DNA of 64,000 nt from assembly GCF_000725345.1 (NCBI RefSeq), contig NZ_CP008852.1:186001-250000 (forward strand). Reading direction: 5' to 3'. The stretch's first letter is position 1. Each line of letters starts with the position of its first letter. The stretch comes from Pelosinus sp. UFO1 (GTDB taxonomy: Bacteria; Bacillota; Negativicutes; DSM-13327). The position numbers and the translations under genes are program-made. The notes beneath the pieces are model-generated. The model worked only from the letters and a program-made list of their open reading frames with translations. It was not told the origin of the DNA and made no database searches. Shown piece by piece: positions 47,530 through 49,103 of the stretch.

Positions 47530-48261
47530 ATGAAGAACCAATTGATACTACCACAACTACGATGTTCCTTTGAAAAAGAACTGCCAGATTCCGAGGTTTT
47601 ACTTGTTGCTGGTGGAAGGCAGCCTGCATCAAAATGGCTTGCTCAAGCGGCCACTCAATTTCCTGTTTGGTGTATAGATAGTGGCGTTGACATTTGCCGC
47701 ATGAATAATATTATCCCAGAACGGCTCATTGGTGACGGGGATAGTGCTACATCCCAGGGGTGGTCTTGGGGGAAGGAATTAGGGATTCCTGTGGAGGTCT
47801 ATCCGCCAGAGAAAAACTTGACTGATTTACAATTAGCATTACAAACAGTAGGGTCACTACATGGAGAAGCTATAGTCGTTGTAACTGGTGTGTGGGGAGG
47901 CCGTTTTGATCATGCTTTTAGTAACATCTATTCTTTAAAAGGTTGCGAAGCTTTTGGAATACGGGGTTGCTGTGCGGACGAAAAAGAAGTGCTTATACTA
48001 TTAAAAGGCAAAGATTCTGTAGTCATAGATACGGCAACCTGTCCAAAAGTTGTTTCTTTACTCCCGTTATCTTCGGAATGCTCCGGTGTTTGTATTGATG
48101 GTGTTCATTGGCCGTTGGTCGATGTTCAATTACATGATACCTTACCCTATGCTGTCAGCAATCGTCCCAGCCAATTGGGCACATCAATCACAGTGACTAT
48201 TGAAGCAGGTTGGTTAGGGATATATTTATGCTGGGATGAAAAAGGTCTGAATACTAAATAA
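47530..48261 (+). CDS. thiN: Thiamine pyrophosphokinase
   Basis: This enzyme transfers pyrophosphate from ATP to thiamine to make TPP. Its 243 residues carry the family motifs IDSGVD near 50, LIGDGDSAT near 70, PPEKNLTDLQLAL near 95, and GGRFDHAFSN near 127. It is followed by the ThiT thiamine transporter gene, so uptake and activation are neighbours, although a separate promoter lies between them. The start at 47530 is preceded by a GGGAG site. Confidence 0.9.
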   Translation: MKNQLILPQLRCSFEKELPDSEVLLVAGGRQPASKWLAQAATQFPVWCIDSGVDICRMNNIIPERLIGDGDSATSQGWSWGKELGIPVEVYPPEKNLTDLQLALQTVGSLHGEAIVVVTGVWGGRFDHAFSNIYSLKGCEAFGIRGCCADEKEVLILLKGKDSVVIDTATCPKVVSLLPLSSECSGVCIDGVHWPLVDVQLHDTLPYAVSNRPSQLGTSITVTIEAGWLGIYLCWDEKGLNTK

Positions 48262-48277
48262 GTAATATTAATTTTTA

Positions 48278-48306
48278 TTGACAAATATTGGATGCGGAAA
48301 TAGAAT
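48278..48306 (+). promoter_or_regulatory. Sigma-A type promoter of thiT
   Basis: TTGACA (48278-48283), a 17-nt spacer and TAGAAT (48301-48306). Confidence 0.75.
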
Positions 48307-48434
48307 ATATGCAATAACCTATAATCCTATACTTGGTGCGGAAAAACTGGATTAGGGAGCGAATCGGCAATTAACACCTCATTCCTAAGATAAGAATGTG
48401 GTGTTAAATTTCCCTATGCCTAGTAAAAAAAAGA
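48307..48434 (+). promoter_or_regulatory. Structured leader of thiT, unrecognised
   Basis: A leader of about 120 nt has a strong hairpin (TTAACACC and CATTC at 48371-48384, with GAATG and GGTGTTAA at 48394-48407) enclosed by TAGGGA/TCCCTA (48353-48358, 48411-48416). An alternative TAATCC/GGATTA pairing (48322-48327, 48349-48354) overlaps the closing stem. The TPP riboswitch consensus (CTGAGA, ACCTGA-GGATAATGC) is not present. Confidence 0.45.
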
Positions 48435-49103
48435 ATGGAGACGAGTGGTGTGGAAGCAAATTTTAGTAGTAAAGTAGCAATAATTTTAGATCAGCCAACC
48501 AGTATTTTCGCTCTAGTGGCACTGGTGACCTTGATTTCCGCTTTTGTATACATAAAAAAAATCAAACTAAACACGCGAATGATTACTCATATTGGTCTAA
48601 TGCTTGCATTAACTGTAATCCTGCATAATCTTCGCTTATACCATATGCCCCAAGGCGGTAGTGTAACGTTAGGAGGAATGATTCCCCTTCTGTTGATTGC
48701 TTTTCGTTATGGACCTGTTGTTGGATATCTGGCAGGTTTTATCTATGGATTGATGAATTTAATACAAGATCCTTATATCCTGCATCCGATTCAAGTTCTC
48801 TTTGATTACCCTCTGCCCTATATGGCAATTGGTATGGCAGGTTATTTTAAAGATCGATTTTTTTTGGGAGCTATAGTTGCCAGCTGTGGTCGGTTTCTTT
48901 GCCACTTTATATCGGGGGCAGTTTTCTTTGCTAGTTATGCACCCCCTGGAACATCACCTTATTGGTATTCCCTGGTATTTAATGCAACATATCTTGTACC
49001 TGAATTGTGTATTTGTCTTGTAATTCTACGCGTACTGCCAGTGAAACGTATACTGTTCCAAATGAAAAATCAAAATTATTACGGACTAATAACACTTAAT
49101 TGA
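48435..49103 (+). CDS. thiT: Energy-coupled thiamine transporter ThiT
   Basis: This is the substrate-binding S-component of an ECF thiamine transporter. The 222 residues include six membrane helices after an extra N-terminal helix (about 22-40). The family pattern is clear: GGSVTLGGMIPLLLIAFRYG and GFIYGLMNLIQDPYILHPIQVLFDYPLPY, then CHFISGAVFFA. It needs the shared EcfAAT module, which is not in the window. ATG 48435 has no obvious ribosome site; a GTG at 48450 with GGAG upstream is an alternative start. Confidence 0.92.
   Translation: METSGVEANFSSKVAIILDQPTSIFALVALVTLISAFVYIKKIKLNTRMITHIGLMLALTVILHNLRLYHMPQGGSVTLGGMIPLLLIAFRYGPVVGYLAGFIYGLMNLIQDPYILHPIQVLFDYPLPYMAIGMAGYFKDRFFLGAIVASCGRFLCHFISGAVFFASYAPPGTSPYWYSLVFNATYLVPELCICLVILRVLPVKRILFQMKNQNYYGLITLN

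Follow-up and report, generated by a model that had tools for sequence, protein, structure and literature searches.

The leader of the thiamine transporter gene thiT in Pelosinus sp. UFO1 is very probably a vestigial TPP riboswitch, the eroded 3′ half of a standard element whose 5′ half has been deleted, and we give this reading a probability of roughly 0.88. The leader lies in a 64-kb stretch of DNA, the whole of which we refer to as the window. The window genome (complete, 5.1 Mb) is coded G000, and the compared genomes carry codes of the same kind (G002, G008, G010 and so on).

The thiT locus and its leader

The leader (48307-48434) separates two thiamine genes: the upstream open-reading frame is a thiamin pyrophosphokinase, tpk (Pfam TPK_catalytic, E 7.1e-18; TPK_B1_binding, E 1.5e-5), and the downstream gene is ThiT (Pfam Thia_YuaJ, E 2.3e-53). 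By comparison, thiT probably starts at GTG 48450 rather than at ATG 48435, the former aligning with ATG in the Pelosinus relatives and G010 and with TTG in G002. The original prediction described a clear promoter followed by a structured leader with competing pairings and a strong hairpin, in which the TPP riboswitch consensus was missing. The promoter is present as TTGACA-17-TAGAAT, with equivalent promoter-like sites at the matching place in G008 and G002, although the scan of the thiT region returned four sites against a shuffle mean of 6.6 and thus no excess; the scan of G010 gave no sense-strand site. The structure is real as well: the predicted fold of 48307-48450 has an energy of -34.7 kcal/mol (z -2.3), a stability reached by 2 of 200 shuffles, and TTAGGGA (48352-48358) pairs with TTCCTAA (48382-48388) in competition with the main hairpin.

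Table 1. Coordinates of the thiT locus and of tandem TPP riboswitch pairs in same-genus genomes
Feature	Position	Strand	Basis or remark
tpk	47530..48261	+	upstream gene; same place at 11 non-Pelosinus thiT loci
Sigma-70-type promoter, TTGACA-17-TAGAAT	48278..48306	+	11/12 matches; 25/29 columns identical to G008
Leader start; deletion scar (44-50 nt), exact break not fixed	48307..48321	+	alignment to G010 and G002; deletion scan
Decayed TPP aptamer 3′ half: former P2 3′ strand, P4/P5 arm, P4 and P1 3′ strands	48322..48363	+	alignments
Main leader hairpin, the former terminator hairpin	48371..48407	+	homologous hairpins in G008, G010 and G002
Former U-tract, now ATTTCCCTA	48408..48416	+	can pair with TAGGGA 48353-48358
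Likely Shine-Dalgarno, GGAG	48437..48440	+	sequence; inference
thiT, thiamine-specific S component of ECF transporter	48450..49103	+	Pfam; likely GTG start by comparison
Tandem TPP riboswitch pairs	G003 C1:3328419-3328707; G004 C1:3274901-3275167; G005 C29:37500-37764
Tandem TPP riboswitch pairs	G006 C32:4985-5280; G007 C146:48866-49149; G009 C128:527-806

The search with Rfam models that the original prediction had proposed returned no standard model anywhere in the window, where no family reached its cut-off. With the thresholds opened to E = 10, the leader matched neither the TPP riboswitch nor any other, confirming that the consensus is missing; it stays below the gathering cut-off of 54.3 bits for RF00059, and when cut out as a fragment it gave no match to the TPP model either. 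The HMP-PP riboswitch, or thiS motif, has its aptamer embedded in the terminator. No match to it appeared in the Rfam scans of the window and leader, a result that would bear on it only in so far as its model is among the families scanned.

Homology to intact TPP riboswitches

Relatives carry the intact element at this locus. Both G010 (locus L053) and G002 (L010) have the order tpk-leader-thiT with a full TPP riboswitch (65.2 and 70.8 bits, respectively), followed in each by a hairpin and a U-rich tract. The window leader aligned to the 3′ half plus terminator hairpin of both. Its local score was 92 with the G010 leader, where none of 500 letter shuffles exceeded 34, and 55 with the G002 leader (letter-shuffle maximum 33; maximum of 1000 dinucleotide shuffles, 34). 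Against 17 intact leaders, its score lay above the 95th percentile of the shuffles in 16 and above every shuffle in five (L053, L010, L054, L055 and L058), or, G010 and G002 apart, in only three of 15 (L054, L055 and L058). The closest counterpart is the leader of G008 (score 130, shuffle maximum 38), which itself matches a profile of the 17 intact leaders over its 3′ part (nhmmer, E 4.3e-14); for the same part cut as a fragment, positions 52-105 of the TPP model were the best of 4227 Rfam families, a weak match at 13.6 bits (E 1.3). The intact-leader profile found no match at the window leader even at E 1000, its best place in the window being 45413-45385 (E 0.26), which is not the leader. 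As neither the profile nor the Rfam TPP model finds the window leader, its homology link rests on G010, G002 and G008, and it is through these that it can be traced to the same ancestor as the intact TPP riboswitches of this locus. The original prediction had left room for either a diverged TPP switch or another RNA switch; this homology favours a TPP origin and lends no support to the second.

Loss and decay of the aptamer

In a deletion scan, the G010 leader aligned better once 44-50 nt had been taken out, its score rising from 27 to 71 against G008 and from 11 to 55 against the window. The lost stretch, whose breakpoints are inexact, comprises the 5′ strands of P1 and P2 together with the GGCUGA segment. 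The 5′ half of the aptamer (GGGGUGCC..GGCUGAGA) carries the pyrimidine-binding site, and the part of RF00059 with GGGGUGCC and CUGAGA (the P2/P3 arm) is deleted relative to G010 and G002. Of the remaining 3′ half, the best-kept piece is TTAGGGAGCG at 48352-48361. Where RF00059 has a P4/P5 arm with a CCAGCGUAGGGA core, the window reads CTGGATTAGGG-AG and G008 reads CCAGCGTAGGGAAG; CUGG-UAAU-CCCAGCGUAGGGAAGCG is retained in G008 and altered to CUGGAUUAGGG-AGCG and neighbours in the window. The window aptamer is thus, by sequence comparison, decayed further than that of G008, in which the TPP 3′ half is still legible.

A still-working, extremely diverged TPP riboswitch would fit where the leader lies, the gene it precedes and its homologous 3′ half and hairpin, yet we find it scarcely credible, the 5′ half being absent in both genomes and the CCAGCGUAGGGA core of G008 being gone from the window.

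Identity between G000 and G008 is uneven along the leader: 25/29 in the promoter, 27/43 in the aptamer remnant, 43/49 in the hairpin and 17/22 in the tail. At fourfold-degenerate sites the two genomes agree at 84/100 positions in thiT and 82/107 in tpk (together 166/207), so the remnant is less identical than the fourfold sites (Fisher P 0.017) and than the hairpin (P 0.007), whilst the hairpin does not differ from the fourfold sites (P 0.30). The sensing part therefore looks unconstrained, and the hairpin could be read either way. A new or replaced riboswitch, in which a different aptamer for thiamine, HMP or another ligand switches the retained hairpin, would fit the stability of the fold, the competing stems and the good preservation of the hairpin between G000 and G008. 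Against it, conservation is lowest in the region that would have to do the sensing (48322-48363), the window stem TAATCC (48322-48327)/GGATTA (48349-48354) has just three of its six pairs in G008, and the U-tract is broken in both genomes. Moreover, G008 is the only one of the ten family genomes to have the window's leader, which leaves two sequences for any covariation, and no Rfam riboswitch appeared up to E 10. We consider this explanation very improbable.

The expression platform

In place of the terminator U-tract of the standard element, both genomes have a broken tract behind a retained hairpin; in the window the tract reads TTAAATTTCCC. A hairpin-plus-U-tract score (custom script) ranged from -20.6 to 36.0 in the 17 intact leaders, with G008 at -29.3 and the window at -48.1, respectively the second lowest and the lowest of 19. 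As our terminator scan passed over the terminator of G010 too, its negative outcome in the window carries no weight. An antiterminator-like pairing is available between the UAGGGA core and UUCC of the hairpin 5′ arm. It exceeded 95% of shuffles in 11 of the 17 intact leaders, among which L055 and L058 are near copies, and fell short of this level in the other six, with the wrong AGGGA core picked in L071. It likewise fell short in the window, where 23% of shuffles were as good, and in G008 (57%). The mutually exclusive pairings of the leader are plausibly a relic of antiterminator and terminator.

The preservation of the hairpin, which shows no visible decay (43/49 to G008, P 0.30), runs against the decay reading and could suggest that a residual hairpin has another job, such as mRNA stability or weak constitutive attenuation. 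In both genomes the former U-tract, by pairing with TAGGGA, now lengthens the stem, and the TAGGGAG/TTCCCTA stem is complementary in all four aligned leaders, the window and G008 included. In intact leaders this complementarity arises because U-tracts pair loosely with purines. The hairpin is no more conserved than the fourfold sites, and only two sequences are compared; we regard such a role as unlikely. A more specific version, at longer odds still, is that the common ancestor of G000 and G008 put the fossil to new use, with the TAGGGA/TCCCTA pairing making a longer, ligand-free hairpin that would fix the level or stability of thiT mRNA, whilst the sister lineage deleted the whole leader and fused thiT to the tpk operon.

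Returning to the vestigial TPP riboswitch, the following course of events would fit the comparisons. In the ancestor, judging from the intact relatives, TPP bound to the tpk-thiT aptamer would have favoured the terminator; when TPP was lacking, UAGGGA(AGCG) would have paired with (CGC)..UUCCU of the terminator 5′ arm, and thiT would have been transcribed. Comparison of the leaders shows that, before G000 and G008 parted, a deletion of 44-50 nt took the aptamer 5′ half and the U-tract was broken; what was left of the aptamer would then have decayed in the window genome. Half-deletion and decay of the aptamer together with the broken U-tract suggest that thiT is most likely free of TPP control, and that it is now most likely transcribed from its own promoter with no TPP feedback.

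thiT loci in relatives

A search found thiT in eight of the ten family genomes and in 157 of 300 from the class; we took the best of these loci and scanned the 23 non-Pelosinus ones (L010, L053-L074) with Rfam. A TPP riboswitch lay just upstream of thiT in 17 of these (L010 included), in agreement with the original statement that thiT genes in Firmicutes are usually TPP-controlled, and none was found upstream at L061, L064, L069, L072, L073 and L074. Within the fetched stretches tpk was upstream at 11 of the 23 loci, ten of which had a TPP riboswitch, the exception being L064. In this locus (L064:1190-1500, genome G026) the tpk-thiT leader contains a promoter-like TTGACA site as well as a hairpin followed by a U-tract; it gave no Rfam match at E up to 10 and E 0.09 to the intact-leader profile, and may be another fossil or have had its sensor replaced. 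The idea that an insertion in this leader is a repeat was rejected, its middle part being single-copy in that genome.

None of the seven same-genus genomes with a thiT match had a TPP match in the fetched locus, and the eighth (G007) had no thiT match. In five of them (G003, G004, G005, G006 and G009) the end of tpk (..GCTGGAAT) is followed directly by GGAGATGA and thiT; with promoter, aptamer and terminator all lost, thiT overlaps tpk. A tree of tpk and thiT grouped these five leader-less genomes (100/100) and, separately, united G000 with G008 (100/100). It is compatible with more than one order of the two clades relative to G010, G002 and G026, so that the half deletion may have come before or after the full one. 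Separately, the thiT of G004 (L012, C1:334618-335264) matches in two overlapping reading frames, by a frameshift or by an error in the 2-contig assembly. G010, which has another family code, is closer to the window in both tpk (81%) and thiT (80%) than several same-genus genomes are, their tpk genes being at 72-76%; transfer or a mislabelled bin would each explain this.

The remaining TPP regulon

TPP riboswitches occur elsewhere in all ten family genomes, and the G000 genome has three others. One precedes thiW (NCBIfam, E 1.3e-40) and thiM (E 1.3e-39, a match below the NCBIfam cut-off because the reading is cut), another precedes thiD (HMP-P kinase, E 1.2e-106), and the third precedes a gene that we took for thiG on inspection by eye, its only NCBIfam matches being weak ones to other barrel enzymes. 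The regulon thus persists, and among these genes thiT alone has visibly left it. Six of the eight same-genus genomes also carry TPP riboswitches in tandem pairs, 61-92 nt apart on one strand (Table 1); G000 and G008 have none in tandem.

Comparison with known systems

The window shares with the TPP riboswitch (THI element, RF00059) and terminator before thiT its place, the aptamer 3′ half and the hairpin, and differs from RF00059 in having no 5′ half, a decayed core, a broken U-tract and no model match. In Lactococcus lactis, a TPP riboswitch directly upstream of thiT is reported to be thiamine-responsive in a reporter (PMC8862789); the gene and position are the same, whereas the window has no intact aptamer. 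Loss of such control has precedents: diatom TPP riboswitches have well-conserved aptamers that are not thiamine-regulated, and loss of function has been proposed for them (PMC9544697), Saccharomycetaceae are reported to have wholly lost TPP riboswitches (PMC5997356), and species with thiamin genes yet no TPP riboswitch are also reported (PMC3766115). Diatoms, Saccharomycetaceae and the window have in common that thiamine genes are out of riboswitch control in one lineage; unlike in the diatoms and yeasts of those accounts, a half-deleted intermediate is still legible here. Open-access PMC literature on vestigial, decayed or lost riboswitches, or on riboswitches of Pelosinus, gave nothing on this leader.

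Riboswitch loss is thus already known, and the window is a further case of that kind, with a series of intermediates. It also carries a caution, that a structured leader with no Rfam match can be a decayed known switch. The stages can be seen together: the switch is intact in relatives, half-deleted but legible in G008, nearly erased in the window, and entirely gone in five genomes whose thiT is joined to the tpk reading frame. Since these genomes retain TPP riboswitches at other loci, comparing strains could test whether one importer has lost its feedback.
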